Assembly: GCF_014062315.1 (NCBI RefSeq)
Contig: NZ_JACGLT010000010.1
Location: 75,781-139,780, forward strand
Source of the DNA: Gelidibacter maritimus
Lineage (GTDB): Bacteria > Bacteroidota > Bacteroidia > Flavobacteriales > Flavobacteriaceae
Direction of reading: 5' to 3'
Length of the DNA stretch: 64,000 bases
Part shown: positions 39,256 to 54,661 of the stretch, in pieces
Position numbering within the stretch: the stretch's first letter is position 1
How the letters are laid out: every line of letters begins with the position of its first letter
Translations under genes and position numbers: made by a program
Notes under the pieces: generated by a model
Told to the model about the DNA's origin: nothing
What the model saw: the letters and a program-made list of their open reading frames with translations, nothing else
The model's database searches: none

Positions 39256-39277
39256 CTTTATATCAAATAATCTATAA

Positions 39278-40162
39278 TTATTCTAATGTGAATTCTGTAG
39301 TAGACACCAACTCTTTCTTGTTGAAAATATTTACCACGTATCTACCTTTCGAAAAATCACCATTTGGAGATACAAATTCACAAATATTAAGATTTCTATT
39401 TTCGTAATTAAACTTGCTTACCAAACTATAATTTAATACTGTTTCATCAAATTGAATCTGCTCATTGGCGCCTAAAACGTTATCATTCGGATCTAAAACC
39501 TGAACATACAGCTCTTTATCACCAGCACCTACTAAAGTGTTCTTTGCAACTGTATAACACAATCTGATTTTATCACTTCGACGCGCTCTTTCGGTCGGGA
39601 TCAGTTTTCCAGAATTTCTCTCAATCACACCAAATGCTTTTAATCCTACCGTTTGTAAAACCGCAGCATTTTCAACCACAGTTGCCAACTCTGTATTTTG
39701 GACCAATAGTGAATCTGTAAACATTGTACGTTCAGCTAATCTTACATTTGTACTATCCAAAGAGGTTGCCAATAACGAGTTTTCAATTTTTAACTTATCA
39801 TTTTCAGCTAAAAGAGTATTCATTTCTTCTTGTAATGATCGGTATTTCTTTCTGAAGCTCATTAAACTGTTTACACTGTTTTGAGATATTTTCAAAGAAT
39901 CCATTAAACCTTGAATTCTATTTCTGGCTTCTGCTAAATCTTCATTTGCGACTTTATTTTCTCCAATGGCAATATCATACTGTTTTGCCATATTACTTAA
40001 ATCGTTCATAACCAACTGCTTCTCTTTGGTTAACTCAGCTTCATTTTGTTTTTTATCATTATATAATTTTGAGGTATAAAAGCCTGTTCCGATAAACAAG
40101 GCCAATAAAATCCCCAAGGCAATCTTTAATCCGGTATTTTTGTTACTGTTTGAACTTTCCAT
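39278..40162 (-). CDS. Membrane-anchored coiled-coil protein with C-terminal beta domain
   Basis: A 294-residue protein. A single N-terminal membrane helix (about 12-30) is followed by a long coiled coil (about 35-170, Lys/Glu/Leu/Asn heptads) and a compact beta-rich domain (about 175-294, with KIRLCYTVAKNTLVGAGDKE). It looks periplasmic. Close relatives occur in Flavobacteriaceae as hypotheticals, sometimes misnamed SMC-like because of the coiled coil. It sits between hutI and hutG but on the opposite strand, so it is not part of histidine breakdown. Confidence 0.75.
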   Translation of the reverse strand: MESSNSNKNTGLKIALGILLALFIGTGFYTSKLYNDKKQNEAELTKEKQLVMNDLSNMAKQYDIAIGENKVANEDLAEARNRIQGLMDSLKISQNSVNSLMSFRKKYRSLQEEMNTLLAENDKLKIENSLLATSLDSTNVRLAERTMFTDSLLVQNTELATVVENAAVLQTVGLKAFGVIERNSGKLIPTERARRSDKIRLCYTVAKNTLVGAGDKELYVQVLDPNDNVLGANEQIQFDETVLNYSLVSKFNYENRNLNICEFVSPNGDFSKGRYVVNIFNKKELVSTTEFTLE

Positions 40163-40207
40163 AAGTTTTGTTTTAGTTATTGATACTTAAATTAACACTG
40201 GTTTTGT

Positions 40208-40215
40208 TATTTTTG
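40208..40215 (+). promoter_or_regulatory. Bacteroidota -7 box for hutG
   Basis: TATTTTTG lies 61 bp upstream of the hutG start. Confidence 0.45.
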
Positions 40216-40251
40216 ATTATTGGAAAAAATTATGATGTAATTTTAATACAT

Positions 40252-40259
40252 CAAATGTA
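40252..40259 (-). promoter_or_regulatory. Bacteroidota -7 box for the coiled-coil gene
   Basis: TACATTTG on the minus strand lies 89 bp upstream of the coiled-coil start. It is placed so that its transcript would run back over the hutG promoter. Confidence 0.4.
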
Positions 40260-40276
40260 AAATTAAATTCTCAAAA

Positions 40277-41311
40277 ATGGAGAAACTTGTTCTATTTAAT
40301 AAAAATGATTTAGATAAATTACTTATAAAAAGAGCTAATGAATCCAAATTTGGAGAACATGTCCAATTACTTTCCAATTCTACCCATATATACGATTCGC
40401 TAACATCTTTGGACGTTGACTACGTTATATTTGGAATTCCGGAAGATGTAGGTGTGTTTGCAAACTATGGAAATCGAGGTGCAGCCAAGGCCTGGGAAGC
40501 AACTCTAAAGGTTTTGTTAAACATTCAAAGTAATAGATTTACAAATGTAAAAAAAGTCCTCATTCTTGGTCATTTAGACTTCTCCAAAGAAATGGACAAG
40601 ATTGATAAATATGATGCAAACGACAAAAAACACATCGAAAAAGCAAGAAAACTTACTGAAAAGATAGACAAGCATGTTACCGATCTCGTTTATCAAATTG
40701 TGCGTTCAGGGAAAAAGCCAATTGTTATTGGTGGCGGACATAATAATGCTTATGGTAATTTAAAAGGTAGCTCATTGGCTTTTAAAAAACCAATTAATGT
40801 CGTTAATTTTGACGCTCATTCTGATTTTAGACGAGAGGAAGGCAGACATAGTGGCAATGGATTCAGTTACGCATTTGCTGAAGGTTTCTTGAAGAACTAT
40901 TTTATTTTCGGCCTGCATGAAAATTATACTTCCGATCATATTTTTAAGATCTTAGACCGATTTAAAGCATTACAATTCAATACCTTCGAAGCTTTAACCA
41001 TTAGAAAAGACAAAAAGTTTAAAGCGGAATTGTCGCGCGCTGCAAAGCATGTGGCCGACAAACCTTTTGGAGTCGAGTTAGATTGTGATGCCATTCAGTA
41101 TATTCCAAGCAGTGCCATGACACCAAGCGGTTTCAGTATCAAAAGAGCTCGAACTTATGTGAACTATTTCGGACAACAAAAAAATGTTGTTTATTTACAT
41201 ATTTGTGAAGCAGCGCCAACACCGGAGACAGAGACTATTGTGGGCAAACTCATTACCTATTTAATTACCGATTTTATGAGGGCAAACCAATCAAGTTATG
41301 AAACAAAATAA
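40277..41311 (+). CDS. hutG: Formimidoylglutamase (arginase/ureohydrolase family)
   Basis: A 344-residue manganese ureohydrolase. Metal ligands are visible as His155 in GGGHN, Asp179/His181/Asp183 in FDAHSDF and Asp269/Asp271 in ELDCDAIQY. The first motif reads GGGHN rather than GGDHS, as in the HutG-like subgroup. With hutI nearby, formimidoylglutamase (formiminoglutamate to glutamate plus formamide) is the most likely reaction; agmatinase or arginase are alternatives. The next small membrane gene overlaps its 3' end by 14 bp. Confidence 0.85.
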   Translation: MEKLVLFNKNDLDKLLIKRANESKFGEHVQLLSNSTHIYDSLTSLDVDYVIFGIPEDVGVFANYGNRGAAKAWEATLKVLLNIQSNRFTNVKKVLILGHLDFSKEMDKIDKYDANDKKHIEKARKLTEKIDKHVTDLVYQIVRSGKKPIVIGGGHNNAYGNLKGSSLAFKKPINVVNFDAHSDFRREEGRHSGNGFSYAFAEGFLKNYFIFGLHENYTSDHIFKILDRFKALQFNTFEALTIRKDKKFKAELSRAAKHVADKPFGVELDCDAIQYIPSSAMTPSGFSIKRARTYVNYFGQQKNVVYLHICEAAPTPETETIVGKLITYLITDFMRANQSSYETK

Positions 41312-41588
41312 ACAATATCGTATCGATTTATGGTTATTTATAGGCAGTATCTCAGTTTTACTGTACCTCTTATTTATGAACCTTATGTTTGAAGATTCAG
41401 GTAGTAACACTTTCAAAGCAATTATGGAGTGGATTACAATTCCGATATTTATTATGGGGGCTTTTATCCCTCTAGTTGTAATTTTTAGGTTTATTGTAAA
41501 AAAAACCGTCAGCACTTCATTGGCAATCTTAACTTTACTCTTTTCATTATTGGCTGCAGTAATGATCGGATATACCACATTGGCTTAG
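41298..41588 (+). CDS. Small membrane protein, three helices
   Basis: A 96-residue protein with three hydrophobic segments (about 10-28, 42-64 and 72-94) and no soluble domain. Its start overlaps the end of hutG by 14 bp, which implies translational coupling. It resembles none of the families I know, and its link to histidine metabolism is only positional. Confidence 0.68.
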   Translation: MKQNKQYRIDLWLFIGSISVLLYLLFMNLMFEDSGSNTFKAIMEWITIPIFIMGAFIPLVVIFRFIVKKTVSTSLAILTLLFSLLAAVMIGYTTLA

Positions 41589-41643
41589 TTCTTTTAAACT
41601 CAGAAATCAACAACCTAACATGTTCATCCACTGGTGTTGGAAC

Positions 41644-43338
41644 TTAGTTTCCTACCGACCTCAAAGAATCAATCTCACGTTGCAATTTTTCGATTTCATC
41701 AGCGTTGGCATTGACTTTAGGAATGGATTGGATGGAATCTATAACTCTTTGAACATCCGCGTCTGTTGGCACGGTGGTTTCATTATAATAGTACCCGATT
41801 CCTTCACTTGCTCTCCAAGCTTCATTTAACTCATCGTATACGGTTTTGTCCCACTGACTTGGATGTTTGACATCAATCCAGATCACATTCCGATATTCAC
41901 TGTCCACCAAAGCCAAATCAGGGGTTGCCGAACCGTCAAACTTTTGTGAATCGGCTTGTACGGCTGATACCGTTCCTAAGAAAAACATGCGCCGGCGTCC
42001 GGCAATATCTTTAATATACGGCCTGAACTCTACCGGCTTATTCACTGACCAGTCGTATTCCTTTCGCGATTCAATAATTTTTAATGGCATAGCAGATACG
42101 CCGGCATAACCTTGCTTTTTAGCTGCGTGATCATAATAATAAAGTTGATCAGTGCCATCTGCCGGCACAAAAACACTATAAGTTAAACTGGTACGTTCAT
42201 CGCCAATCGGTTCCAATCCAAACCAATGGTACAAACCGCTATAAGCCTTGGCATCAACGTCTTCAAAATTAAAATCGGTTACAAAAGGTTGTTCATTTTG
42301 GTCATCGGGCATATCCGGAATTTTTACAGCAGTTTGCATTTTCCATGGCAGAGGATCTGTAAATCCTCCCAAAAACTTTAAGGACTCTGCTTGCAAGCGC
42401 GATATATTTTCTGATAAGGTATTTTGTTTGGTCAAAAACGGATGGTTTTTCATTTCCTCAGGACTGATATAAGTGCCTTTTCCAATCAAGACGCGCTCCA
42501 AATAGTCGTTAAAATCGTGCTTTCCACTATCAATGATCATCACCCCACCAAAAGTTGGATAAGGAAAAAAGAAACCCTTCCACTTGATTAAACTGACTAC
42601 TTCCACCCAATTTCCAGAGTCGTTCTTCATATAAAAGGTGTCACCGGGCTCCATGGTAAACAACTGAAAAATATTGAAGCGCTGCACCACCGCATTGTAG
42701 GTATTACGACTGAATTTTAAGGATTCGCCAATCGAGAAGGTCACTGGAATCCGATTCTCATTTGAAAACCTCGGAAATGGCGACGTACTGGAAACAGAAA
42801 AAATCTCCTCCGTATTCTCACTAATTTGCTGCATGGTGTATTTCTCGGAAGGCTGGATGGCCATTGTCCATCTGTTCTCATTATCTATTCTTACCAAATG
42901 AGGCAAAGACACATCTTTTGTTTCTCCAACCGACTCATTGGCCATAGAAAAGATATTGCGTAATGGTTGGATGCGTTCGTTTTGTGTCAATGGCAATTCG
43001 TTGATTTCAACTCTATTCAAGTTATTGAAAACATTATAGGTTTTCATATAATCATACATTTTAAAATGCCAACCTACTACATAAAGCAACCCAAGAAACA
43101 GAATTAAAAGTCCTAAGATTCCTAAACGGCGCCCCACACCAACGGCATTTCTAAACTTTCGCAGCCCAAAAAATAAGACCAGACCAATAAAGAGAATTAT
43201 AAAAATATATTTTCTAATGAATAACAAAAATGGTTGGTAATCGTCCCGAAGAAAAAACAACAAGATTATTAAAACCAAGGCACTAATGATGGTGATGGTT
43301 TTTTGTCTTGATCCTTTATTCCAATAGTTCTTTATCAT
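41644..43338 (-). CDS. Large membrane protein, last gene of the AAA+ cluster
   Basis: A 564-residue protein. Three closely spaced hydrophobic helices (about 13-30, 41-60 and 72-92) are followed by a soluble domain of about 470 residues that I cannot assign. It includes aromatic-rich beta segments (WVEVVSLIKWKGFFFPYPTF, YSGLYHWFGLEPIG) and ends in a short coiled coil (DEIEKLQREIDSL). The large domain is probably extracytoplasmic or lies on one membrane face. It is preceded by a GGTTGTC heptamer array 14 bp before the start codon. The same orientation and spacing as the six upstream genes suggest one functional unit. Confidence 0.75.
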   Translation of the reverse strand: MIKNYWNKGSRQKTITIISALVLIILLFFLRDDYQPFLLFIRKYIFIILFIGLVLFFGLRKFRNAVGVGRRLGILGLLILFLGLLYVVGWHFKMYDYMKTYNVFNNLNRVEINELPLTQNERIQPLRNIFSMANESVGETKDVSLPHLVRIDNENRWTMAIQPSEKYTMQQISENTEEIFSVSSTSPFPRFSNENRIPVTFSIGESLKFSRNTYNAVVQRFNIFQLFTMEPGDTFYMKNDSGNWVEVVSLIKWKGFFFPYPTFGGVMIIDSGKHDFNDYLERVLIGKGTYISPEEMKNHPFLTKQNTLSENISRLQAESLKFLGGFTDPLPWKMQTAVKIPDMPDDQNEQPFVTDFNFEDVDAKAYSGLYHWFGLEPIGDERTSLTYSVFVPADGTDQLYYYDHAAKKQGYAGVSAMPLKIIESRKEYDWSVNKPVEFRPYIKDIAGRRRMFFLGTVSAVQADSQKFDGSATPDLALVDSEYRNVIWIDVKHPSQWDKTVYDELNEAWRASEGIGYYYNETTVPTDADVQRVIDSIQSIPKVNANADEIEKLQREIDSLRSVGN

Positions 43339-43352
43339 AGTGTTCTGTTGTG

Positions 43353-43386
43353 GGTTGTCGGTTGTCGGTTGTCGGTTGTCGGTTGT
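43353..43386. repeat. GGTTGTC heptamer tandem array (copy 1)
   Basis: Four full GGTTGTC units plus one partial, immediately upstream of the 564-residue gene (14 bp from its ATG). The same array occurs at 46298-46331. Confidence 0.9.
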
Positions 43387-43442
43387 TAAGATAATAATGA
43401 ATTGTTAATCAAAAATCGCCATTCAAAAATCGTAAATCCCAT

Positions 43443-43967
43443 TTACATTAATCCTTTATCTTTCAATCGCTCTCTAGCGCTCTTTTTTGGTGGCTGTGGT
43501 TCTTCTTCAATTTCTTTTTTGGCTTCTTCCACCACTTTTGGTTCTCTTGAAGTGATATCCTTAACAAAATCCTTGCTTTGTTCTATGGCATGATCAAATT
43601 TTTCTTCTAAATTTTCACTATGGGCATCGATAACTTTTTCGGATTTTAAAACAAATCCTCCAATATAAGTTCCCAAGAGCGTCCCGACAATACTTGAGGC
43701 AAATACGGAGATTGTTGCAATATCAATCGGAATCAAAAAGCGCGCAATTAAAATTGCAACCAGAAAAATCATGGCAATAAATACCAAACGTAAAATAAAT
43801 TTTTGCTGATACAGAAAGCCCGTGGGATCATTTGGTGACATTTGGAGTTTTTTGGAATACATCATTTTATTGAAAAAGCGATACATCCCGTTACCTGTAG
43901 ATTCTCTCCAATAAAGGAGGATTCCGAATAGAATTGAGCCGATGAAAACGATGATCTCTAAGGTCAT
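43443..43967 (-). CDS. Membrane protein with charged C-terminal tail
   Basis: A 174-residue protein with three hydrophobic segments (about 2-20, 57-78 and 82-106). A cytosolic acidic/basic tail (about 110-174) follows, containing KEIEEEPQPPKKSARERLK. I do not recognise the family. It lies between the DUF6638-like gene and the 564-residue membrane protein and is oriented the same way; the tail could be the docking site for the soluble partners. Confidence 0.75.
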   Translation of the reverse strand: MTLEIIVFIGSILFGILLYWRESTGNGMYRFFNKMMYSKKLQMSPNDPTGFLYQQKFILRLVFIAMIFLVAILIARFLIPIDIATISVFASSIVGTLLGTYIGGFVLKSEKVIDAHSENLEEKFDHAIEQSKDFVKDITSREPKVVEEAKKEIEEEPQPPKKSARERLKDKGLM

Positions 43968-44353
43968 TTTTTTTAGTTTTTATAAATTAAACTCCTTCTA
44001 AAGGAGAAGGATTATGCTTTCAAAGCGAAGAAGAGTTCGTTAATATCTATTTTGATTGTTTTGATATAATTACGAATAAACCCTTCCTTCTTCAGGCTCT
44101 ATACTGAGCCTAAATCCACCTTCCCTTTCATTCAAGGGAAGGATTTTTTTAATAATCGTTATCTCAAAATTTCTCCTCCTTAAAAGGAAGAGTGGATTCA
44201 TCCCGAGAAAACGGGGTAAAGACGAGGTGGTTGACCTATTCTTCATTTAAAAGGCTTTCTCTCTGATTTAATCCAAATTCAATTCGACAAACGCAATGAA
44301 CATGTAAAGAAAACTTGAAACTATTCACCTCCCTTAAAATTAGTCTAAAAAAT
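43968..44353. other. Repeat-rich spacer in the AAA+ cluster
   Basis: A 386-bp spacer without a gene. It holds several short hairpins (CTCCTTCTAAAGGAGAAGG around 43991; CCTTCCCTTTCATTCAAGGG around 44118). It also holds a dispersed segment (44187-44234) found again at 48432-48479. The pieces look like degenerate copies of an intergenic repeat element. Confidence 0.55.
44187..44234. repeat. Dispersed intergenic repeat, segment 1 (copy A)
   Basis: A 48-bp segment containing GTGGATTCATCCCGAGAAAA that matches 48432-48479 with about four mismatches. Both copies are in spacers of the same gene cluster. Confidence 0.85.
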
Positions 44354-45589
44354 TTATATATTGTTACGAATCGTTGCAATCACCCAATCTTTCAGCGAAT
44401 CATCCCAATTTCTATACTTTTCATAAAACTGTTCTTTGTCATACCAATACAGGAACAAAACATCTAAAGACGAAATATTTACCAACAATTTCCAAATCAA
44501 ATCCTGATGTTTTGCATTTAAGGACGAATGTGGCTTTTGCAAGGCTTCAAAAAGTTCCTCATCGACAGTATCTGCTAATTTATATTGATTGCTGACTTCC
44601 ATTTTTTCAAGATACAATTCCACGCTCATCACTCTTTTCCGATCCTCAATAGGCAATTTGTTCAAGTATCCTTTGAATAATACCTTATCATCCAAAATAT
44701 CCTTAATGGGATGTTGCGTTTCTTGTAAAAATTGCGAAAACATGAACTTTTTAATCCGCTCATAGCGCGCGGTCTTAACCACGTCATCCAAATTATATTC
44801 AATAATCAGATGGTCGCGTAACTTGTCTAACAACTCAGGCTGTGAAATGTGATAAATCAATACGTCATGAGAGGTATCCTTAATGGCTTCCTTATGCCAC
44901 TTTTCATCTTCAAAAACCACAATGGGCGTAATGAAATCACGCAAAACATACACACCTCCAAAAGCCTTCGTGTAAAAAGAGTCCGTAGTAAAATATAGTT
45001 CTTTAAGGTCCAAATTCCGGTGTCTTAAGTCGCCATAAGTTTTTGCTGAATTCAACAAGCGTTGGTGCAGATTTTCGTCAATAAAATTATGTCCTTGTTT
45101 AAACCTGTCGATCAACTCAAACTGTTGTTTTTGTATTTTATTAAGATTGTTGATCAGTTTAAAGCTAATGGAGATATCCTTGTATTTCAGCACGTCCAAA
45201 GGTTCATAAAAAGCATCAATAAATTGATCAAAGTCAACGCAAATAGCACAGTCTCTGGTAATATCATTAATTATATCACCATGAGTTCTGAAAATCAATT
45301 GCATCATCTCCCGATCAAACGTATGAAATGGCATATACACCGGTTTTCCTTTTTGTAATGGTGTAATGATAATGGCATTCGGATTGGCCTCTCCATTATT
45401 CAGATAATGGATTACCTTTTTTTCTTCAGCAATTTCAGGGCTCCAACCCAAGCCGTCGATTGAAAAACTTGTGAGTTTTGTTTCAGTCAACCCCAAAATT
45501 TTTAGACATTGATTATAGCGCTCTACCAATTTCCCACTGATAGGGATGAGATCGTTTCTAAATAATTGTGCTGTTTTTAGTTTTTCCAT
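44354..45589 (-). CDS. DUF6638-like soluble protein
   Basis: A soluble protein of about 411 residues, starting MEKLKTAQLFRNDLIPISGK. An ATG 48 bp further upstream would add a weak extension (start 45637). It is helical, with no signal or membrane segment. Characteristic stretches are TSFSIDGLGWSPEIAEE and PVYMPFHTFDREMMQLIF. I place it tentatively in the DUF6638 family of Bacteroidota, from memory; no function is established. It lies between the Nudix and small membrane genes in the AAA+ cluster. Confidence 0.7.
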   Translation of the reverse strand: MEKLKTAQLFRNDLIPISGKLVERYNQCLKILGLTETKLTSFSIDGLGWSPEIAEEKKVIHYLNNGEANPNAIIITPLQKGKPVYMPFHTFDREMMQLIFRTHGDIINDITRDCAICVDFDQFIDAFYEPLDVLKYKDISISFKLINNLNKIQKQQFELIDRFKQGHNFIDENLHQRLLNSAKTYGDLRHRNLDLKELYFTTDSFYTKAFGGVYVLRDFITPIVVFEDEKWHKEAIKDTSHDVLIYHISQPELLDKLRDHLIIEYNLDDVVKTARYERIKKFMFSQFLQETQHPIKDILDDKVLFKGYLNKLPIEDRKRVMSVELYLEKMEVSNQYKLADTVDEELFEALQKPHSSLNAKHQDLIWKLLVNISSLDVLFLYWYDKEQFYEKYRNWDDSLKDWVIATIRNNI

Positions 45590-45700
45590 ATCATTTCCCA
45601 CAAAGGTGGGAATCTCTTTATTTTTTCCGATATTCATTTGCTGCCTGCTTCTACATGATTTTCAAAAAAAGCGGATGTGCAGGCTCGTTTTTCTTTGTTC

Positions 45701-46288
45701 TTAATGCTTAATTAAATTATTTATCTGAGCATATTGCAACAAAATAATAGTTTTGGCGTCCCGAATTTCTCCAGACTCTATCATTTCCAAGGCTCTGGTA
45801 AACGGTATTTCCATAACTTCAATTTCTTCATGTTCACTTGCCAATCCGCCACCTTCACTGACTTTCATATCTTCAGAATATGGTGCCACATACAAATACA
45901 TCTTTTCGGTTAAGGCTCCAGGTGACATATATGTTTCGATCACCTTTTTAACATCCCTTACCTTATATCCAACCTCTTCTTCTACTTCTCTAATTATTGT
46001 AGATTCCGGCAAATCATTATCATCTATAGCACCAGCACAGACTTCAATGGACATCGCTTCGTCTTTATTGGTATGGTAAATTGGCATCCTAAATTGGTTT
46101 GTCAATATAATAGTCCCTTTTTCAATATTGTATAATAAAATCCCAGTACCATGCCCACGATCATAGCTTTCTCTCGAAACGCGTTTCCATGTGCCATCTT
46201 TAAACCGGTAATCATAATTGATCTCCAGTAGAGTAGCCCAAGCTTTGGAAAGTGTTTTATAGATGATGTTTTTTATGTTTTTTGACAT
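45701..46288 (-). CDS. nudK: Nudix hydrolase, NudK-like (GDP-mannose pyrophosphatase type)
   Basis: A 195-residue Nudix protein. The Nudix helix ends in REVEEEVGY, and the surrounding pattern (AGAIDDNDLPES before it, TYMSPGALTEKMYLYVAPYS after it, ALEMIESGEIRDAKT near the end) matches NudK, which hydrolyses GDP-mannose. Other nucleotide sugars or ADP-ribose cannot be excluded. It is 66 bp downstream of the AAA+ ATPase gene, with a heptamer repeat array 9 bp before its start, and it forms part of the unexplained cluster. Confidence 0.87.
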   Translation of the reverse strand: MSKNIKNIIYKTLSKAWATLLEINYDYRFKDGTWKRVSRESYDRGHGTGILLYNIEKGTIILTNQFRMPIYHTNKDEAMSIEVCAGAIDDNDLPESTIIREVEEEVGYKVRDVKKVIETYMSPGALTEKMYLYVAPYSEDMKVSEGGGLASEHEEIEVMEIPFTRALEMIESGEIRDAKTIILLQYAQINNLIKH

Positions 46289-46297
46289 TGTTTTTGA

Positions 46298-46331
46298 GTT
46301 GTCGGTTGTCGGTTGTCGGTTGTCGGTTGTC
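46298..46331. repeat. GGTTGTC heptamer tandem array (copy 2)
   Basis: One partial plus four full GGTTGTC units, 9 bp upstream of the Nudix start codon; equal in unit and length to the array at 43353-43386. Confidence 0.9.
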
Positions 46332-46360
46332 TAAATTTCAAAAAAATCACTAATTAGTCC

Positions 46361-48319
46361 CTAATTTTCAAACTTTTTTCGTGCTTCCAATTCGATGTTG
46401 AGTTGGTTGACCCTTGAATCCACTTGACGTTTGAAATCGGTGTCGGCAATGGTGGCAACATTATCCAAATAACGCACAACTTCCTGACGCCTTATTTCAG
46501 AAAAATTGAGACCTTTCATATTGGCCCGCATCAATTCCTGCAGCATGTTGAATTTGGTCTCGTAGGTCTGTTTAAAATAGATCTCGGGATTATCGAACCA
46601 AGCGGGTTCCAAATCAAAATCGGTTAAACGCAATGAGATGGCCGATTGGATATTTCTCACATCCCTTGATGAAAAGAACGGAAAAATTTTTTGGATTTCT
46701 TTATATAAATTGGCATAAAATTGATGTTCATTGGTTTGAAACTGCTTTTCAACCTGATCATAAACAGCATGGACGCGCTGCTCAGTAGGCTTATTCACGG
46801 CGCTTAAAATCTCTCCCATGTTCTTGGCCAAACCTTGATCCTGGAGATAGTTATAGTGTTTTGGATCTTTCATATTTATAAAATCGGGCATCGTTTTTTC
46901 TAACTTACGCCACCATAAATGATCTTGGTCCAAAAAGTCATGTTCGGTACGTGCACCGTCGATTTTGAATCGACCTTGCACCCTTGAAATCACAGCTTTA
47001 TCCAGCATTTCCGGTAAATTAGTAAATAATCCGATAGAGCTATTACCATAATTTACCGCGTAAGCCCCTTCCGTGTATCTTAAAAACACCCCAATAACCT
47101 CTTTAACGCCAGCAGAAACGCCTTGAGCAGTACGTTCCTGCAGATTGTTTTCAGCATCGTCAATAGGTGCGAAAATCAATTTTGAAGGATCTTGCATGGG
47201 CTTCATCCATTCCACCATTTTTTCGGCAGAACCGCCCTGAAAGGTGGAAATCAAGGTATCGGGCATCGGATGGAATAAAAATGGGATCTCCAAATGGTCA
47301 CAATGTTCCTTTAGTTTTGTAGCAATTGCGGCTATAAGCATACTTTTTCCTGTTCCAGGAATACCGTAACCCATAAAGACTGGCATAAAGCCGCCCAATT
47401 CCTGAAACGGATTCTTTTTGGCGGTAAAATCGTAACTCAGCATGCGCTCGGTTAATCGGCGTGCAAAATGTTTGGCGTCTTTGTTTCCGACAATCTGTTC
47501 AAACTTAATTTTGTTGAATTCGACGCTTTTAGCAGCACCGGCAAAAACATTATTCCACCCAGAAATTGCAAATTCGGAATGCTCAAGTTTATAAGTTCTG
47601 TCCACAATGGTTTCCTGATACTCCAAAGTAGATTTTCGCATTTGAATTTCATCAATCAATGCTTCAAAGAAGACCACTGTAAAATCGGCCACATCCTTAT
47701 CACTTTTGATGATATCTGGATGTCCCAAATACTTGTCATAATAAAACAAGGTACAGGCCACACCTTTTAGAGGCGATAAAAGCGAAACTTCAGGGATACC
47801 CGCAAATTTTTGCTTCATCACGCTCAAATCGTCAGATGCATAAGGTTTTAAGTTGTGCAAAATATTATAGGCCGCTGAAAACAACATGAAGCCAGTTGCC
47901 GTATGCATTTTGCTTTCATACTCTCTTTTCCCCATGCTGTCCAATGAGGCTTTTCGCTCATTTAAACTGGATAGTCCTGAAGCATCATAGTAGCTATCCT
48001 TGATCCAAATACCTAAGGTCAAACCTTCTTGAACGGCATACAGCGTTTGGTTAAGTAATACTGGAATGGCAATGGAATCTGGAAGCAAACGCTTTTTAAG
48101 CTCTAAAATAGTTTTGGAAACTGCCGTTGTTTCTGCCATATTGGAGCCATTATTGGCCCTTGAAAGATAGAGAAGAATGGAATCGTCTTTGGCGTCCTTA
48201 TCTTTGTTCTTGGCGCGTTGCCCTTGTTCCCATTGGATACTTTTAAGATACGACGCGGCTTCGTCACGAAGCATATCGAGATCATTTTGTTTTATGGGAA
48301 AGGTTGAGTTTTGTTGCAT
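46361..48319 (-). CDS. AAA+ ATPase of unknown role
   Basis: A 652-residue cytosolic protein. An N-terminal helical region of about 280 residues precedes a AAA+ module: Walker A GIPGTGKS (319-326), Walker-B-like LIFAPIDDAEN (Asp387-Asp388), sensor-1-like GLFTN (Asn434) and a putative arginine finger at Arg446 in VISRVQGRF. A C-terminal helical region of about 190 residues follows. The second acidic residue of Walker B is Asp rather than Glu. It is not FtsH, MoxR, ClpX or an IstB-like protein by layout. It sits in the middle of the seven-gene minus-strand cluster and is likely its motor. Confidence 0.85.
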   Translation of the reverse strand: MQQNSTFPIKQNDLDMLRDEAASYLKSIQWEQGQRAKNKDKDAKDDSILLYLSRANNGSNMAETTAVSKTILELKKRLLPDSIAIPVLLNQTLYAVQEGLTLGIWIKDSYYDASGLSSLNERKASLDSMGKREYESKMHTATGFMLFSAAYNILHNLKPYASDDLSVMKQKFAGIPEVSLLSPLKGVACTLFYYDKYLGHPDIIKSDKDVADFTVVFFEALIDEIQMRKSTLEYQETIVDRTYKLEHSEFAISGWNNVFAGAAKSVEFNKIKFEQIVGNKDAKHFARRLTERMLSYDFTAKKNPFQELGGFMPVFMGYGIPGTGKSMLIAAIATKLKEHCDHLEIPFLFHPMPDTLISTFQGGSAEKMVEWMKPMQDPSKLIFAPIDDAENNLQERTAQGVSAGVKEVIGVFLRYTEGAYAVNYGNSSIGLFTNLPEMLDKAVISRVQGRFKIDGARTEHDFLDQDHLWWRKLEKTMPDFINMKDPKHYNYLQDQGLAKNMGEILSAVNKPTEQRVHAVYDQVEKQFQTNEHQFYANLYKEIQKIFPFFSSRDVRNIQSAISLRLTDFDLEPAWFDNPEIYFKQTYETKFNMLQELMRANMKGLNFSEIRRQEVVRYLDNVATIADTDFKRQVDSRVNQLNIELEARKKFEN

Positions 48320-48356
48320 TGGTTGATTTATGAATTATGTATTGAATTAGCCACGA

Positions 48357-48380
48357 ACCTGCCCATCCGTTCAGGCGGGT
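48357..48380. repeat. REP-like palindrome
   Basis: ACCTGCC and GGCGGGT pair over 7 bp (one G-U) with a 10-nt loop. It is close in sequence to the palindrome at 49955-49970. Confidence 0.55.
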
Positions 48381-48431
48381 GTACGACTATATAAATTTTA
48401 TAATCTCTTTTAATTCTGCTCCTTTGATAGG

Positions 48432-48479
48432 AGGAGTGGATTCATCCCGAGAAAACGGGATGAAGACGATGTGGTTGAT
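48432..48479. repeat. Dispersed intergenic repeat, segment 1 (copy B)
   Basis: It matches 44187-44234 with about four differences over 48 bp. Confidence 0.85.
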
Positions 48480-48500
48480 TCTCTCAAGTCGGTTTCAATA

Positions 48501-48600
48501 ACCCGAGGCTTGCCCCGATTGAAAAGGCAATTCCTTATTCATACCTCCTCGTGGGCTTGACCGCCCATGGTGGTCTGAAGGTCCACGAGATTCTTGATTA
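48501..48600. repeat. Dispersed intergenic repeat, segment 2 (copy A)
   Basis: A roughly 100-bp segment running from CCGAGGCTTGCCCCGATTG to GAGATTCTTGATTA. It contains the inverted repeat CTCGTGG / CCACGAG and aligns with 57529-57627. Confidence 0.7.
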
Positions 48601-48753
48601 CACCCTTCCGCCTTAAATTCCTCCACGGGAATTTAATCCACCTTCCCTTAAATAGAGAAGGAATTTTTTATCGTTTATTTAAAAAACTTTCAATGCTTAA
48701 CAATTAAAAGTCTTGATTCTTTGTACTTTAAGCGCAGCGGTCTAACTTCTATT

Positions 48754-49815
48754 TTACACTTCACTTATTTTCAAATCCGCCATCTGAATCGGCGGTTTAG
48801 CCAAACCATTCATTATTTCCGGTGTTTTACTGTATAACAACTGAATGATACGGTGTCGCGCCATGACATAATTTTTATGCACAGGGTCATTCCATTTCTG
48901 TAAAATTTGCTTTGAAAAATAGCCTCCTTCACTAAATTCGCTGCCTGAAAATACTTCGTCAACACTTAAAGACAATGCGTAGGATTCCAGTGGCACCACT
49001 TTATCTGCAATATTCTTGAGAATAGCATGGGTGATTTGATTTTCATCCTTGGCAAAAACATTATGAAACGGTCCCAGATCAATACGCTTGATGTGTTTCG
49101 GCCGAATATCCTTCAATTTTCGGTCAATACCATAGGCCATAACATCTAAACTCATCACCCGATCTGCGGTGGTTTTAAGCACTTCGTAAATCTGTTTTTT
49201 ATGGGCTTCAATAGTGGCACCCTCAAAGTCAAAATACATATAACAGATAAAAGGTCGGTTGCAACCTACATCAAAAAAACTCCAACTGGTCATGAATTCG
49301 GCTTCAGAATTTTCAGGTGCCTTGATGATTTTTCCTTGGACAAACCGATTGAAAATAAACTTCTGTTCTACTGAAGTGTAATAAACAATGGAGGCCGCTT
49401 GAAACAATTTACTTTTTTTGATGGGTTCTTTCTTTCGGAGCAAGGTATCCAAAAACTCTTCCTGTAACTCACTCACATCTTTAAGTTTGTTGACGTAGTT
49501 TGCCTTTAATGACAAATCATTGAACAGATACCGGAATTCTAAATAATTGGGAAAACCAGATTCGGTCAGATCCACTTTCATATTCTCCTCTTCGTCATAC
49601 ATGTACTTGACCCGCATGGCTTCAATGGAATACAATAGCAAATCAGCATATTGTTTAAAAAAAATGAGTTCCTGGTGGGTGCACAGATTTTCACGTTGTG
49701 CACTCACTATTAATTCTTTTAGTACAAAATCGACCATTTTATGATAAAACACATACTGCTCCTTGGAATCGAGATATGCAGAATCTAATGGTGTTACGAT
49801 GTGATTAATGGACAC
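48754..49815 (-). CDS. Unknown soluble protein of the AAA+ cluster, GTG start
   Basis: A 353-residue soluble protein that I do not recognise. The first 130 residues are helical (EEENMKVDLTESGFPNYLEF region). The middle contains strand-like segments (FICYMYFDFEGATIEAHKKQ), and the C-terminus is helical. There is no signal peptide. The initiation codon is GTG (MSINHIVTPL); the next in-frame Met is 26 codons in and would cut the N-terminal helix. It lies between the coiled-coil gene and the AAA+ gene, a position often held by an adaptor. Confidence 0.75.
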   Translation of the reverse strand: MSINHIVTPLDSAYLDSKEQYVFYHKMVDFVLKELIVSAQRENLCTHQELIFFKQYADLLLYSIEAMRVKYMYDEEENMKVDLTESGFPNYLEFRYLFNDLSLKANYVNKLKDVSELQEEFLDTLLRKKEPIKKSKLFQAASIVYYTSVEQKFIFNRFVQGKIIKAPENSEAEFMTSWSFFDVGCNRPFICYMYFDFEGATIEAHKKQIYEVLKTTADRVMSLDVMAYGIDRKLKDIRPKHIKRIDLGPFHNVFAKDENQITHAILKNIADKVVPLESYALSLSVDEVFSGSEFSEGGYFSKQILQKWNDPVHKNYVMARHRIIQLLYSKTPEIMNGLAKPPIQMADLKISEV

Positions 49816-49954
49816 TTTTATATTTAAAAATTATGAATTATTGCTAATGTAACTACAGTCTAAACACGCGTTAAGGGATGCAGCGGCATCCTTGTTTGTT
49901 TGGAGGTTGAGTTTAGCCAAACCTTCAAACAAAAAAGATACAGCGGAACACCTA

Positions 49955-49970
49955 CCTGCCAGCAGGCAGG
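49955..49970. repeat. REP-like palindrome
   Basis: CCTGCC-AGCA-GGCAGG, a perfect 6-bp stem with an AGCA loop, in the spacer between the coiled-coil and 353-residue genes. Confidence 0.6.
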
Positions 49971-50066
49971 CCTGACCACGCTTTTCGCGTGGGAACGCTT
50001 TGAACAAAACACTCAATAGACCAGACAGATTTTGAAAATCAGTCAGGTCAACTATCATTCGTTGAA

Positions 50067-51416
50067 TCAAGACAATAGATCGTCGGAATTGGTTTCTGGT
50101 TTTGGCGCTGCCGCAGGTTTTCCTGCATCGTCATTACCTGAGGGTTTTGTAGCGTCAGCCTTATAGTAATCCTCAAAGATCTCTTTCATGTCAATACCGT
50201 AGCGCTCGGCGAAATTCTTTTGAATATCGGCATCTTTAGTACGGATTTCCTGTAAAGCTTCTGCGTAACTGCTATAAACTCCTTGCATCACTTTTTCGTG
50301 TACAGGAATATTATCCATCATTTCCTGACGTGCTTTTGCACTTGCGGTATGCATTGATGCTAAGGTTTCTCCAATATGCTCATCGGTCTTGACCCCCAAA
50401 TGTTCAAGTATAGCCGCGAATTCCTGATCTGTGCGCGCTTTTAAAGCCACAACATAACCGTCATAATATTTAAGTCGCTCTTCGGTATCACTCTTTAGTT
50501 TAGCACGGTGTGTCTGTAAATTGCTACGTAGAGATGTCAATACCTTAATGGTCAGGTTATGCTTATGCACAAAGCTATCTTTACTCGCCGCCAATGTGGT
50601 ATAGGCGTTTTTAAGGCCTTCCAACTCTTCTATTTTTTGTTCCAAGGTTGTCACTTTGCCTACAGACTGGGCATAGTCGGCCGATTGCTTATCAACAATT
50701 TCATCCAATTCTTGGCGGGCCTGTTTTAACAGCGCGTAGTTATCATCGAGTTTGGCTTCTACTTCTTTTTTCTTTTCTAAGGCACGGGTATGATTTTTAG
50801 TAGCCTCAACAATAGCTATTTGAAGCTTATCTTCTACCTCCTTAATCTCAACTTCCCTGTTTTTTAAACGGGATACCGCAGCCTGACTCTTATAGGACAG
50901 TTCGGCCAAAAGCGTTTGTACATCGGCGCTTTCAATACGCTCTTGGAACATGGCTTTGGCCTTATTATCAGCACCCGCCCTAACTTTCTCTGCTTCCTTA
51001 AACTCCTGTTCTTCCTGTTTGATTTTGCTTTTACGTCCCCATAGATTGTTCCACCAGGTATCGGGCTTATTGCGCGCATCTTCCAATTCTATGCGAGCAC
51101 GGTCCAATGCTTTTTGGGCATCATCAATAACCCGTTGCTCATCGGCATTGAGAGAAGAAAACTTCTCAAAGATAATCCCCACTTCGTCCTGATAATCTGT
51201 AAGGTCCTTGATGGCATCCAAGAGTGTTGTTCGGTCTTTCTCAGCCATATGTACCACATCATCAAGTGTGGCATTTAAGATTTTTTGGCGGGACTGTGGA
51301 TCGTCTTCCTGGGCGAGCTTAGACTTCATGGTGTCAACGGCTTTCCCCCAATTGACATCCACTTTACCAGTTTTTTCGTTGGAATTGGTTTCTAATAAAT
51401 CAAAATCATCTGACAT
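50067..51416 (-). CDS. Long cytosolic coiled-coil protein, first gene of the AAA+ cluster
   Basis: A 449-residue protein without signal or membrane segment. After an acidic N-terminus it is nearly all helix. Strong heptad stretches (about 75-120, 125-270 and 290-330) are interrupted by an aromatic basic motif DTWWNNLWGRKSK near residue 118. The end is Pro/Ala/Asp-rich and disordered. TelA-type or other all-helical scaffold proteins are possible distant relatives, but I see no diagnostic motif. It is preceded by a promoter box and appears to open the seven-gene transcription unit. Confidence 0.78.
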   Translation of the reverse strand: MSDDFDLLETNSNEKTGKVDVNWGKAVDTMKSKLAQEDDPQSRQKILNATLDDVVHMAEKDRTTLLDAIKDLTDYQDEVGIIFEKFSSLNADEQRVIDDAQKALDRARIELEDARNKPDTWWNNLWGRKSKIKQEEQEFKEAEKVRAGADNKAKAMFQERIESADVQTLLAELSYKSQAAVSRLKNREVEIKEVEDKLQIAIVEATKNHTRALEKKKEVEAKLDDNYALLKQARQELDEIVDKQSADYAQSVGKVTTLEQKIEELEGLKNAYTTLAASKDSFVHKHNLTIKVLTSLRSNLQTHRAKLKSDTEERLKYYDGYVVALKARTDQEFAAILEHLGVKTDEHIGETLASMHTASAKARQEMMDNIPVHEKVMQGVYSSYAEALQEIRTKDADIQKNFAERYGIDMKEIFEDYYKADATKPSGNDDAGKPAAAPKPETNSDDLLS

Positions 51417-51484
51417 ATAGTTTCATATTTAAGTGAATTCAAAGTAATTTAATGAACAGCAATTTCGTTAAAATAAATCAGTAT

Positions 51485-51492
51485 CAAAATTA
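51485..51492 (-). promoter_or_regulatory. Bacteroidota -7 box for the AAA+ cluster
   Basis: TAATTTTG on the minus strand lies about 70 bp upstream of the first gene of the cluster. No other exact -7 match was found in the cluster's internal spacers. Confidence 0.5.
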
Positions 51493-51593
51493 TTATTCCT
51501 TTAATTTATTGGTATGAATTCTTATAAAATTGTTACAGACTATAGAAATAAGTTTTAAAGTCATTATCTTTAAGTGACAAAAATGAAAATAAA

Positions 51594-52379
51594 ATGAAAC
51601 ATTTAAATATTGTTACAGCACTACTTATAATGCTATTGATGGGCTGCAAACACAGTACAGAAAAAGCTGTAGAAGTGGCCTCCGAGATGGCTGACGATTT
51701 TCACGAGTCGACGCAGCCAGAAGCAATAAATATCATTCCAATTAATCACGCTACCATGATTTTGGCATATAAAGACCAAGTGGTATATGTAGACCCTGTT
51801 GGTGGTTCTAATATATTTTCAGATCAAGAGAAACCAGACTATATTCTGATCACAGATATCCATGGCGATCATTTGGATGTATCCACATTAGAAAATATGG
51901 TGCTGGATTCAACGACACTTATTGTGCCACCAGCAGTGAAAGAAAAATTACCGGAATTAAAAGCCAAAGAAATTATCGTGATGAACAATGGGGAAAACAA
52001 AGAACTTGAAGCTTTTTCTATTGAAGCTGTCCCTATGTATAATTTAAGAGAAGAAGCCTTAAAATTTCATGAAAAAGGTAGAGGTAACGGATATGTTTTA
52101 ACTTGGAACAATCAAAGAATATATATTTCAGGTGATACTGAAGACATTCCGGAAATGAGGAGCCTCGAAAACATTGATATTGCCTTTGTTTGTATGAATC
52201 TTCCATATACGATGACGGTAGAGAGTGCAGCAAGTGCGGTATTGGATTTTAAACCCAAAAAAGTATATCCGTACCACTATAGAGGAACTGACGGAATGAG
52301 TGATGTTGATAAGTTTAGATCCATTGTTAACAAAACGAATTCTGACATTGAAGTTGTGCAGTTAGACTGGTATGAGTAA
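51594..52379 (+). CDS. MBL-fold lipoprotein, UlaG-like
   Basis: A 261-residue lipoprotein: signal sequence with lipobox LLMGC (Cys18), a short acidic linker, then a metallo-beta-lactamase fold (residues 45-261). The usual HxHxDH motif reads DIHGDH (88-93), so the first His is replaced by Asp. The later ligands appear as SGDTED and YPYHYRG. This variant motif suggests altered metal binding within the UlaG-like branch. It sits outside the cytoplasm, presumably in the outer or inner membrane leaflet. It is divergent from the AAA+ cluster; a near-consensus -7 box (TATCTTTA, 51565-51572) precedes it. Confidence 0.82.
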   Translation: MKHLNIVTALLIMLLMGCKHSTEKAVEVASEMADDFHESTQPEAINIIPINHATMILAYKDQVVYVDPVGGSNIFSDQEKPDYILITDIHGDHLDVSTLENMVLDSTTLIVPPAVKEKLPELKAKEIIVMNNGENKELEAFSIEAVPMYNLREEALKFHEKGRGNGYVLTWNNQRIYISGDTEDIPEMRSLENIDIAFVCMNLPYTMTVESAASAVLDFKPKKVYPYHYRGTDGMSDVDKFRSIVNKTNSDIEVVQLDWYE

Positions 52380-52466
52380 CTATTTATCGAATCCATTTTA
52401 TAGCAAAAAACAATCCGTCGCTGTAACTTTTTTATTTTGATATAGTTACGAAATAAATTAAAAGTG

Positions 52467-52474
52467 TATATTTG
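52467..52474 (+). promoter_or_regulatory. Bacteroidota -7 box for the small membrane pair
   Basis: TATATTTG lies 31 bp upstream of the ATG at 52506. Confidence 0.5.
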
Positions 52475-52505
52475 GACAGCCAACCGAATCTAATTTCTTG
52501 CAATT

Positions 52506-52739
52506 ATGTCTCCTACATTTCACAAAGTCTCCCAATTCGCCGTAGTAAGCACCGAACATCTTACTATCGTTTTACTTATAACTGCAGGCGTATTTTTATT
52601 TTTTATTGCAATAGCAGTAATCAAAATGTACAAATTAAAGGCTGAAAACAAACGGTTAACGGATAGCGATGCTTTTAAAGCAGAAGTGGATGAGAGTTAT
52701 AAAGATTTTACGGATGGTCATTTATATGACAATAATTAA
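52506..52739 (+). CDS. Small membrane protein, paralogue 1
   Basis: A 77-residue protein with one membrane helix (about 18-40) followed by the basic motif KMYKLKAENKRL and an acidic tail (DESYKDFTDGHLYDNN). The motif recurs in the next gene (KVYKLKAKLK). No family is recognised. Together with its neighbour it forms a short two-gene unit ended by a terminator. Confidence 0.65.
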   Translation: MSPTFHKVSQFAVVSTEHLTIVLLITAGVFLFFIAIAVIKMYKLKAENKRLTDSDAFKAEVDESYKDFTDGHLYDNN

Positions 52740-52753
52740 GCAATTTCGTAATT

Positions 52754-52918
52754 ATGGGTAATTTCAGTATTATTATCACAACCACTCAAGACCTTAATAA
52801 AATAGTCAGTATTTTATCAATAGCAGTTGTTACTTTACTGATTTTATTAGGTTTGAATATTTATAAAGTATATAAGCTTAAAGCAAAATTAAAATCAATT
52901 AATAATAACAATAAATAA
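52754..52918 (+). CDS. Small membrane protein, paralogue 2
   Basis: A 54-residue protein (MGNFSIIITTTQDLNKIVSI start) with a single membrane helix (about 17-36) and then YKVYKLKAKLK and an Asn-rich end. It begins 14 bp after the preceding stop. The helix plus YKLKA arrangement matches the upstream 77-residue protein, which suggests a tandem duplication. It is short enough to be missed by length filters. Confidence 0.6.
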   Translation: MGNFSIIITTTQDLNKIVSILSIAVVTLLILLGLNIYKVYKLKAKLKSINNNNK

Positions 52919-52937
52919 TCTTTCACTCAATAAAAAA

Positions 52938-52963
52938 ATACCGCTCGATGAGCGGCATTTTTA
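52938..52963. terminator. Intrinsic terminator
   Basis: CCGCT-CGATG-AGCGG is flanked by an A run and a T run, between the small membrane pair and convergent ettA. Confidence 0.8.
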
Positions 52964-52969
52964 TTAGCA

Positions 52970-54661
52970 TTATCGCACTAATTTCTTGTACTTAAGTCGT
53001 TTTGGAGTTAGATCGCCCCCAAGACGTTTTTTCTTGTTTTCTTCGTATTCACTAAAGCTACCTTCAAAGAAATATACTTGAGAGTTGCCTTCAAATGCTA
53101 GTATATGCGTACAGATCCTATCCAAAAACCATCTGTCGTGACTGATTACGACGGCGCAGCCCGCAAAATTCTCAAGACCTTCTTCCAAGGCTCTTAGAGT
53201 GTTGACATCCAAGTCGTTGGTTGGCTCATCTAAAAGTAAAACGTTACCTTCTTCCTTGAGCGTCATGGCCAAGTGCAAACGGTTACGCTCCCCACCAGAA
53301 AGCAATTTCACTTTTTTATTCTGTTCACTTCCGGAAAAGTTAAAGCGACTTAGATATGCTCTGGAGTTGACTTGTTTTCCACCCATCATGATCAATTCCT
53401 GTTCGTCACTGAAGTTCTGCCAAATCGATTTTTCAGGATCAATATTGGAATGTTTTTGATCCACATAAGCCAATTTTGCAGTTTCACCTACTCTAAATTC
53501 ACCTTTGTCAGGAGTTTCTTCACCCATGATCATTTTGAAAATTGTGGTTTTACCTGCACCATTCGGACCAATGACCCCAACAATACCTGCTTGAGGTAAA
53601 TTGAAATTTAGATCTTCATAAAGTAATTTATCACCATAACCTTTACTGACTCCAATGGCTTCAATAACATTTGTGCCTAATCGAGGACCATTGGGGATGT
53701 AGATTTCCAATTTTTCGTCAAGTTGCTTTTGATCTTGACTCATCAATTTATCGTAGTTGTTCAAACGTGCTTTTTGTTTGGTCTGACGCCCTTTGGCACC
53801 TTGACGCACCCATTCCAACTCACGTTCCAAGGTTTTTTGACGCTTGGAAGCCGTTTTGCTTTCCTGGGCCATACGGGTAGATTTTTGATCTAACCAAGAC
53901 GAGTAGTTTCCTTTCCAAGGGATACCCTCTCCTCTATCCAGTTCTAAAATCCAACCTGCCACATTATCCAAGAAATATCTATCGTGGGTCACGGCTATAA
54001 TTGTTCCTTTATATTGAGATAAATGCTGCTCCAGCCAATGTACAGATTCTGCATCCAAATGGTTGGTAGGCTCATCTAATAACAACACATCAGGCTCTTG
54101 CAATAGGAGTCGACATAATGCCACACGACGACGCTCACCACCGGAAAGCACCCCAATCTTTTTATCACCATCGGGCGTTCTTAAGGCATCCATGGCAATT
54201 TCCAATTTCGTATCGAGTTCCCAAGCATTGGAAGCATCAATTTTATCCTGCAATTCGGCTTGACGGTTCATCAACTTTTCCATTTTATCTGGATCAGAAT
54301 ACACTTCTTCCAGTCCAAACATATCGTTGATTTTATTGTATTCATCAAGAATGGCTACCGTTTCTGCAGCACCTTCACGAACCACTTCCATAACGGTTTT
54401 GTCGTCATCCAACTGTGGCTCTTGCTCTAAGAGCCCGACGGAGTATTCCTGAAGAAAAGTAACATCGCCCTGGAAGTTTTTATCCTGTCCAGCAATAATT
54501 TTTAAAAGTGTGGATTTTCCGGAACCGTTAAGCCCCAAAATTCCAATTTTAGCTCCGTAAAAGAAGCTTAAATGTATGTTTTTCAATACTGGTGTATCAG
54601 CACCTTTAAAGGTCTTGGTAAGACCTCGCATCGAAAAAATTACTTTTTTATCATCGCTCAT
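52970..54661 (-). CDS. ettA: Energy-dependent translational throttle protein EttA (ABC-F)
   Basis: A 563-residue ABC-F ATPase that binds the ribosomal E site and gates the first elongation step according to ATP level. It has two Walker A motifs (GLNGSGKST and GPNGAGKTT), two LSGGE signatures (GVLSGGERRRVALCR, KLLSGGERNRLHLA), an inserted arm region between residues about 95 and 140 and the linker KRQKTLERELEWVRQGAKG. Length and linker match EttA rather than Uup or antibiotic-resistance ABC-Fs. It is monocistronic. Confidence 0.94.
   Translation of the reverse strand: MSDDKKVIFSMRGLTKTFKGADTPVLKNIHLSFFYGAKIGILGLNGSGKSTLLKIIAGQDKNFQGDVTFLQEYSVGLLEQEPQLDDDKTVMEVVREGAAETVAILDEYNKINDMFGLEEVYSDPDKMEKLMNRQAELQDKIDASNAWELDTKLEIAMDALRTPDGDKKIGVLSGGERRRVALCRLLLQEPDVLLLDEPTNHLDAESVHWLEQHLSQYKGTIIAVTHDRYFLDNVAGWILELDRGEGIPWKGNYSSWLDQKSTRMAQESKTASKRQKTLERELEWVRQGAKGRQTKQKARLNNYDKLMSQDQKQLDEKLEIYIPNGPRLGTNVIEAIGVSKGYGDKLLYEDLNFNLPQAGIVGVIGPNGAGKTTIFKMIMGEETPDKGEFRVGETAKLAYVDQKHSNIDPEKSIWQNFSDEQELIMMGGKQVNSRAYLSRFNFSGSEQNKKVKLLSGGERNRLHLAMTLKEEGNVLLLDEPTNDLDVNTLRALEEGLENFAGCAVVISHDRWFLDRICTHILAFEGNSQVYFFEGSFSEYEENKKKRLGGDLTPKRLKYKKLVR

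Follow-up and report, generated by a model that had tools for sequence, protein, structure and literature searches.

A conserved AAA+-centred gene cluster of Gelidibacter maritimus, a candidate undescribed membrane-associated system with a core that recurs in Pseudomonadota

Phage shock protein (PSP) and endosomal sorting complex required for transport III (ESCRT-III) systems pair a long helical protein (PspA, Vipp1, Snf7) with a classical ATPase of the AAA+ type (ATPases associated with diverse cellular activities; Vps4) and with membrane proteins. One study (PMC11237479) describes AAA+ genes beside PspA/Snf7 genes. Here we analyse a cluster of seven genes, G1 to G7, on the minus strand at positions 41644-51416 of a 64,000 nt stretch of the Gelidibacter maritimus genome (the whole stretch is called the window). 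The cluster resembles PSP/ESCRT systems in composition, but judged by its sequence membership fails on the coiled coil, as G1 has no detectable homology to PspA. In addition, the Pfam results of the membrane proteins G6 and G7 contain no match to PspB or PspC, and to our knowledge G2 and G5 have no counterpart in PSP/ESCRT-III systems. We file the cluster as a putative undescribed AAA+-centred system among the broad AAA+ remodelling assemblies. A literature search on DUF6638, on PF20343, PF10095 or COG5345, and on an AAA+-centred gene set, with subscription journals and preprints mostly outside its scope, returned no description.

The seven minus-strand open reading frames (ORFs) of the original prediction are present with the lengths it had given. 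In order of transcription they are:

50067-51416, minus strand: G1, 449 aa, long helical/coiled-coil protein (ORF; helical in the AlphaFold2 model), cross-phylum core
48754-49815, minus strand: G2, 353 aa, no predicted transmembrane (TM) segment, no known family (ORF), cross-phylum core
46361-48319, minus strand: G3, 652 aa, AAA+ ATPase of the classical AAA type (PF00004, E=5.7e-9), cross-phylum core
45701-46288, minus strand: G4, 195 aa, Nudix hydrolase of the YffH/AdpP subfamily (TIGR00052), optional accessory
44354-45637, minus strand: G5, 427 aa, DUF6638 protein (PF20343, E=5.9e-30), cross-phylum core
43443-43967, minus strand: G6, 174 aa, small protein with three TM segments and a predicted cytosolic C-terminal tail (hydropathy, charge pattern)
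41644-43338, minus strand: G7, 564 aa, with a large, predicted periplasmic domain after three TM helices at the N-terminus (hydropathy, charge pattern)

Profile searches confirmed the labels AAA+ (PF00004), Nudix (PF00293 and TIGR00052) and DUF6638 (PF20343), and gave no Pfam or NCBIfam family above cut-off for G1, G2, G6 and G7. Sequence searches of the PDB returned nothing significant, and an Rfam scan of the window gave no match.

Comparative genomics indicates that the genes of the cluster almost certainly form one functional unit, because their order is conserved, their co-occurrence in Flavobacteriaceae is near all-or-none, and four of them recur together in Pseudomonadota. We compared 100 loci that had been chosen by G3 (20 around the AAA+ gene from a genome sample and the best 80 of 340 relatives, with at least five pairs representing, by their length, the same contig twice). 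Homology was assigned by tblastn with a threshold of E 1e-5, which a very divergent Nudix protein could escape; homologues were found for G1 in 98, G2 in 98, G3 in 100, G4 in 71, G5 in 100, G6 in 98 and G7 in 97 loci. All missing core genes are confined to three short loci (L089, L095, L132), and all 97 longer loci carry the six genes G1-G2-G3-G5-G6-G7 in identical order and on the same strand. Where it was found, the Nudix gene G4 sits between G3 and G5. Because 29 of the 100 loci have no recognisable G4, the Nudix gene is dispensable to the unit.

An independent count of presence, not based on loci chosen by G3, was made in 249 Flavobacteriaceae genomes. G3 occurs in 76 and G7 in 77 of them; 75 have both genes, 3 have only one and 171 have neither. 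G3 without G7 was seen in a single genome (G576, 73% complete, partial match). Both genes are retained in genome G520, although about 850 kb of a single contig separate them, and in genome G554, where they are located on separate contigs. In samples of Bacteroidota strong matches were obtained for G3 in 5 of 395 genomes, for G5 (DUF6638) in 4 of 296, for G7 in 4 of 296 and for G1 in 3 of 198. These are Flavobacteriaceae only and the same genomes where the samples overlap, and all four G7 carriers have G3. Weaker G3 matches elsewhere (E ~1e-4) look like generic AAA matches. G3, from a host genome of 4.7 Mb, is 98% identical to the AAA+ protein of Gelidibacter pelagius, as fits a Gelidibacter-like host. 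The conserved co-occurrence for which the original prediction had proposed a search across Bacteroidota is borne out by the 97 long loci and the 249 genomes, and the scattering of homologues over other genomes that it had named as counter-evidence was not observed.

The survey of Pseudomonadota covered plasmid and chromid records (72,556 records). With G3 of the window as query, ten plasmid records from Vibrio and rhizobia were recovered (27-28% identical residues across 78-88% of the protein, with E values down to 7e-55). Sinorhizobium G3, G5, G2 and G1 as queries matched 10, 10, 10 and 11 records, among them the same ten each time, which belong to Sinorhizobium, Shinella, Rhizobium and Vibrio. 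Match coordinates place the genes in the order G1-G2-G3-G5 on one strand in all ten, and six of the loci were read directly (L151-L155, L159). Homology to the window proteins was assessed by hhalign, for which unrelated profile pairs gave Prob <1 in the same procedure. G2 matched the Vibrio and Sinorhizobium neighbours of G3 with Prob 97.5 and 98.5, and G1 matched its Vibrio and Sinorhizobium counterparts with Prob 92 and 83 and the proteobacterial profile with 96.8. For G5, Prob was 99.9 against Sinorhizobium, and the DUF6638 profile of Pfam matched with E=8.2e-76 in Sinorhizobium and 1.6e-58 in Vibrio. As the N- and C-terminal flanks of G3 are 21% and 28% identical to those of the Sinorhizobium homologue (AAA domain 37%), homology of G3 extends beyond the ATPase domain.

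The original prediction had regarded all seven genes as parts of one machine. Order and co-occurrence uphold a six-gene unit, but the seven-gene boundary was drawn wrongly: the Nudix gene is optional (present in 71 of 100 loci), four genes make up the cross-phylum core, and the membrane genes are specific to lineages. The Nudix enzyme, proposed as a possible signalling or clean-up component, keeps its place between G3 and G5 when present but is better described as an optional passenger. From the conserved gene set it is reasonable to infer that the products act as one machine.

A membrane partner of the core was found outside Flavobacteriaceae as well. A gene for DUF2333 (PF10095) follows G5 in five of the ten records (four Sinorhizobium and Shinella). 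In the eleventh G1 record, a Rhizobium leguminosarum plasmid, G1 adjoins DUF2333 and the other three core genes are absent from the plasmid, and the coiled coil is therefore linked to a membrane part. Three of nine plasmid records with DUF2333 hold none of the core genes.

We tentatively favour, with somewhat less than even confidence, the reading that G1, G2, G3 and G5 form the cytosolic core of one ATP-driven system whose ring remodels a G1 scaffold, with G6 and G7 as its envelope attachment in Flavobacteriaceae. In such a system G3 would form an AAA+ ring and grip its substrate via the aromatic pore loop. The substrate would most likely be G1, a long helical scaffold that may assemble on the cytosolic side of the inner membrane, and G2 and G5 could connect the ring with this scaffold as adaptors or regulators. 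G6 with its basic cytosolic tail and G7 with its periplasmic domain may tether the scaffold or report the state of the envelope to it. ATP hydrolysis would then disassemble or reshape the scaffold, and the membrane would be remodelled or stabilised much as when Vps4 acts on ESCRT-III, but with unrelated parts.

The AAA+ protein fits its place in this scheme by most of its motifs. G3 matches PF00004 with 36.9 bits (cut-off 21.2), and its Vibrio homologue with 50.1 bits. Like CDC48, PAN, FtsH and Vps4 it has the PF00004 domain with Walker A, pore-loop aromatic, sensor 1 and arginine-finger pattern; unlike these proteins it has an IDD Walker B and long flanks (about 265 aa N-terminal and about 180 aa C-terminal) without a named family, and the NCBIfam relatives of its AAA domain, among them CDC48, PAN and FtsH, all score far below cut-off. 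Motifs were counted in 107 sequences (the window, the 100 Flavobacteriaceae loci and six of the ten proteobacterial records). Walker A, sensor 1 and the arginine-finger pattern occur in 107/107 and the aromatic pore loop [FY]QG in 106/107. Walker B of classical AAA proteins usually reads DE (IDE), with the glutamate being catalytic. In G3 it is IDD in 107/107 sequences, so that the DE signature with its catalytic glutamate is missing throughout.

The AlphaFold2 models were built from Flavobacteriaceae alignment rows. The model of G1 is helical with a mean pLDDT of 64.7, and contains two long consecutive helices (166-239 and 246-326) of fair to good local confidence, while the conserved C-terminal part (from ~320) has pLDDT <50. 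A Foldseek search with this model returned nothing at E<=0.001, only generic coiled coils. Profiles and structure models had been proposed as a check for the 449-, 353- and 564-residue proteins: homologues of G1 and G2 were found, and the models of G1 and G7 are too weak to name folds. In Flavobacteriaceae both ends of G1 carry acidic Leu-Leu motifs, N-terminal MSDDFDLLE/DDFDLLE in 95/97 and C-terminal DDLLS in 97/97 proteins; these motifs are absent from the five aligned proteobacterial G1 proteins. The motif counts left out G6 fragments <150 aa and one G1 <400 aa, and one G1 row starts with a run of N.

TM segments were predicted by a hydropathy script, with one 46-aa G6 fragment dropped. 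The three-helix architecture ascribed to G6 is predicted in 90/97 orthologues, with a positively charged loop 1, and the three N-terminal helices ascribed to G7 in 97/97. A basic motif resembling SARERLKDKG is found at the C-terminus of G6 in 88/97 orthologues, and the charge pattern predicts a cytosolic location for this tail. For G7 the charge pattern predicts an N-in/C-out topology, which places its large domain in the periplasm; its AlphaFold2 model (mean pLDDT 43.2) is too poor for a fold search. Among the loci studied G6 is confined to Flavobacteriaceae. The G1 end motifs and the G6 tail, both specific to this lineage, would be compatible with a contact between G1 and G6, which is a guess. 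G7 and DUF2333 are alike in layout, each having TM segments at the N-terminus and a large domain behind them. G6 was also considered as a YqhA homologue and rejected in comparison with one YqhA sequence.

Several observations weigh against the reading of a scaffold-remodelling ring with membrane attachment. ATP hydrolysis by G3 is not assured, because its Walker B has D at the position of the usual catalytic E. In the Foldseek search with G1, VIPP1 (rank 47, E 0.27) comes after coiled coils of SMC and F-BAR proteins. G7 occurs without G3 in two Flavobacteriaceae genomes (G582, 99% complete, and G585, 87% complete). No homology is detectable between G7 and DUF2333, so that G7 was rejected as a DUF2333 homologue. 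Furthermore, a membrane partner adjoining the core is not universal, as seen from two neighbourhoods. The Vibrio core is preceded by two genes without predicted TM segments and followed by mfd; in R. leguminosarum TP16 the sole candidate is a weak match to DUF2333 (E 2.8e-4), located about 2.6 kb upstream. G3 and G5 are separated by a DUF559 gene in Sinorhizobium, and in strain Ak57 by an insertion sequence (IS) element as well.

Alternatively, the cluster may serve AAA+ protein handling, which we consider possible but rather unlikely: G3 with G2 and G5 as adaptors would unfold or extract envelope or cytosolic clients, G1 would be a rigid arm or delivery scaffold, and G7 would sense the folding state in the periplasm. 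The aromatic pore loop, the inclusion of CDC48, PAN and FtsH among the below-cut-off relatives and the conservation of G2 and G5 as partners without predicted TM segments all agree with such a role. It is disfavoured by the lack of a protease family among the seven proteins (Pfam/NCBIfam) and by the nature of the co-conserved partner, a long helical protein that on one rhizobial plasmid stands beside a membrane protein with no AAA+ gene on the plasmid, the only replicon searched. A bolder form of the favoured scaffold reading, which we regard as unlikely, would make the cluster a third kind of bacterial ATP-driven membrane-remodelling machine, with a filament unrelated to PspA/Vipp1 and dynamins (PspA being the family compared by profile), a D-D Walker B and a constant core plugging into G6/G7 or DUF2333 envelope modules.

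It is improbable, and already disfavoured, that the cluster is a divergent PSP/ESCRT-III-Vps4 branch, with G3 as the Vps4 and G1 as a PspA/Snf7 homologue too diverged for sequence searches to detect. Such a branch would be in line with PspA/Snf7 genes beside AAA+ genes, including a Bacteroidetes neighbourhood with a PspA-like coiled coil (PMC11237479), with VPS4B/SKD1 among the best, non-significant PDB sequence matches of G3 (E 0.47-0.84), and with VIPP1 in the fold search of G1. However, G1 aligned to PspA profiles (the only family profiles used for this comparison) with hhalign Prob 0.2-7.1, compared to 96.8 for two PspA subgroups as control, and G1 as PspA was rejected. G1 proteins are also longer (357-449 aa versus 228-291 aa for the PspA proteins used), and the 265-residue N-terminal flank of G3 has no Pfam match to an MIT domain.

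TelA (PF05816) is likewise helical and of similar size (361-389 aa), but G1 gave Prob <=0.1 in hhalign, run without a separate TelA positive control, and was rejected as TelA. The host genome has no match to PspA or TelA. Among 61 sampled Bacteroidota genomes TelA scores over cut-off in 4 (L160-L163) and PspA is found in 20 (L165-L176 among the loci), with PspA in none of the six Flavobacteriaceae of the sample, the host included.

An anti-phage or conflict system is more improbable still. Weak PADLOC similarities (E values: G3 to IetA 5.1e-6, Nudix to PDC-S07 4.5e-5, G6 to a 2TM effector 4.5e-4, G5 to UzuA 6.4e-4, G1 to JetC 1.5e-3) and the patchy distribution in the family (76 of 249 genomes with G3) would suit it. 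But these matches are partial and weak, 76 of 100 loci have the cluster close to the same ABC-F gene, with distances that correlate with those of ABC-F, the G3 searches returned no relatives on viral contigs or in phages, and the ten plasmid records, all large replicons, are typed non-mobilizable. A viral or phage origin was rejected for want of such relatives of G3. IetAS was rejected as well: NF042959 scored 15.2 bits versus the required 510, the PADLOC match covers residues 318-498 only, and no IetS is among the matches of the seven proteins. The view that these are unrelated housekeeping genes and chance neighbours, to which the large gaps here and inserts in some relatives (about 8 kb between the Nudix and DUF6638 genes in G184/L145) might point, is refuted for practical purposes by the identical set of 10 plasmid records (of 72,556) that hold four of the genes in another phylum, the near all-or-none occurrence and the co-retention at about 850 kb separation in G520.

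If the system does remodel membranes, it may be responsible for this task in about one third of the sampled Flavobacteriaceae (76/249); such a role in the carriers is conceivable because neither the host nor the other five sampled Flavobacteriaceae have a PspA match. The cluster joins four protein families in one testable motor system in two phyla and gives a context to DUF6638, and partly to DUF2333. The modular pattern of a constant core with exchangeable membrane partners indicates which proteins to assay first.

G5 is a member of DUF6638 (104.9 bits against PF20343, cut-off 27). Its true start is probably Met17, at ~45589, giving 411 aa, because 13 of 14 aligned orthologues begin there; the remaining one starts one residue earlier (starts chosen by script). 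The G5 profile had one match in the PDB (E 0.014 over 84 residues), taken as chance. G4 passes TIGR00052 (152 bits, cut-off 79.55) and also matches PF00293; with 194.6 bits it stays below the cut-off of 234 of the NudK equivalog NF011585. In PMC5256989 a duf2333 gene adjoins a Nudix gene in a locus linked to a type VI secretion system, with a gene set different from the core.

The distances between loci point to inheritance that was mainly vertical with losses, at least within the sampled genera, because the six proteins show mutually correlated distances, with a looser correlation to those of ABC-F, which lies nearby. Spearman coefficients of pairwise distances among the six proteins were 0.47-0.77 (75 loci); against ABC-F they were 0.67 for G3, 0.56 for G7, 0.55 for G2, 0.38 for G5, 0.35 for G1 and 0.33 for G6 (75 loci). 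Some of the 24 loci in which ABC-F was not seen are too short to show it.

The inner gaps of the cluster, from G1 to G7, measure 251, 434, 72, 63, 386 and 104 nt. In relatives the G3-G4 gap is <=30 nt in 51 of 71 loci, and in those lacking the Nudix gene the G3-G5 gap is <=30 nt in 16 of 29 (median 7 nt, maximum 2286); the other gaps are mostly >30 nt. In Shinella the gaps are 3 nt (G2-G3), 10 nt (G3-G5) and -8 nt (G5-DUF2333). The -7 promoter box of Bacteroidota is TANNTTTG. The original prediction had claimed one good promoter box at the start of the cluster, and a scan of the minus strand outside the seven ORFs of the cluster stretch indeed gave a single match, at 51485-51492, 69 nt upstream of G1. 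However, the window contains such boxes about as often as chance predicts (95 versus 87.4; with a -33 part 9 versus 7.4), about one -7 box is expected in the cluster gaps, and sigma-70-like boxes lie in three inner gaps (49864, 48413, 43361; 67 versus 52.7, sd 6.5, in 38000-55000). Promoter boxes were dropped as evidence, the counts being at or near chance. Order, strand and spacing are compatible with co-transcription of the cluster and also with its absence.

Two gaps of the cluster contain a 55-nt element with a hairpin (44180-44234 and 48424-48478, 89% identical). Perfect copies of its 24-nt core number just two in the genome, both in these gaps, and two more copies have 3 mismatches; a 19-nt part is present in one other locus, of Gelidibacter (L055). 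The 141-nt region around the copy at 44180-44234 folds better than 200/200 shuffles, while around the other copy 9/200 shuffles fold equally well. The 7-bp tandem repeat GGTTGTC occurs in the gaps before G7 (43348-43386) and before the Nudix gene (46292-46330).

The insert in genome G184 (L145:5213-14339) includes a 1490-aa ORF, and the AAA+ and Nudix genes of this locus have a further ORF, of 150 aa, between them; in genome G403 (L147) the Nudix and DUF6638 genes are similarly far apart. The Vibrio copies (L151, L155) lie on replicons of ~0.9 Mb labelled plasmid, with the core directly before mfd, and in L151 a gene annotated as RNase H family is found near the core. A membrane protein of the YqhA family is encoded immediately after DUF2333 in Skermanella (L157:5827-7487), and in R. 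leguminosarum (L156) a YqhA homologue lies ~3.5 kb from DUF2333 on the opposite strand. DUF2333 and YqhA are possibly a second module.

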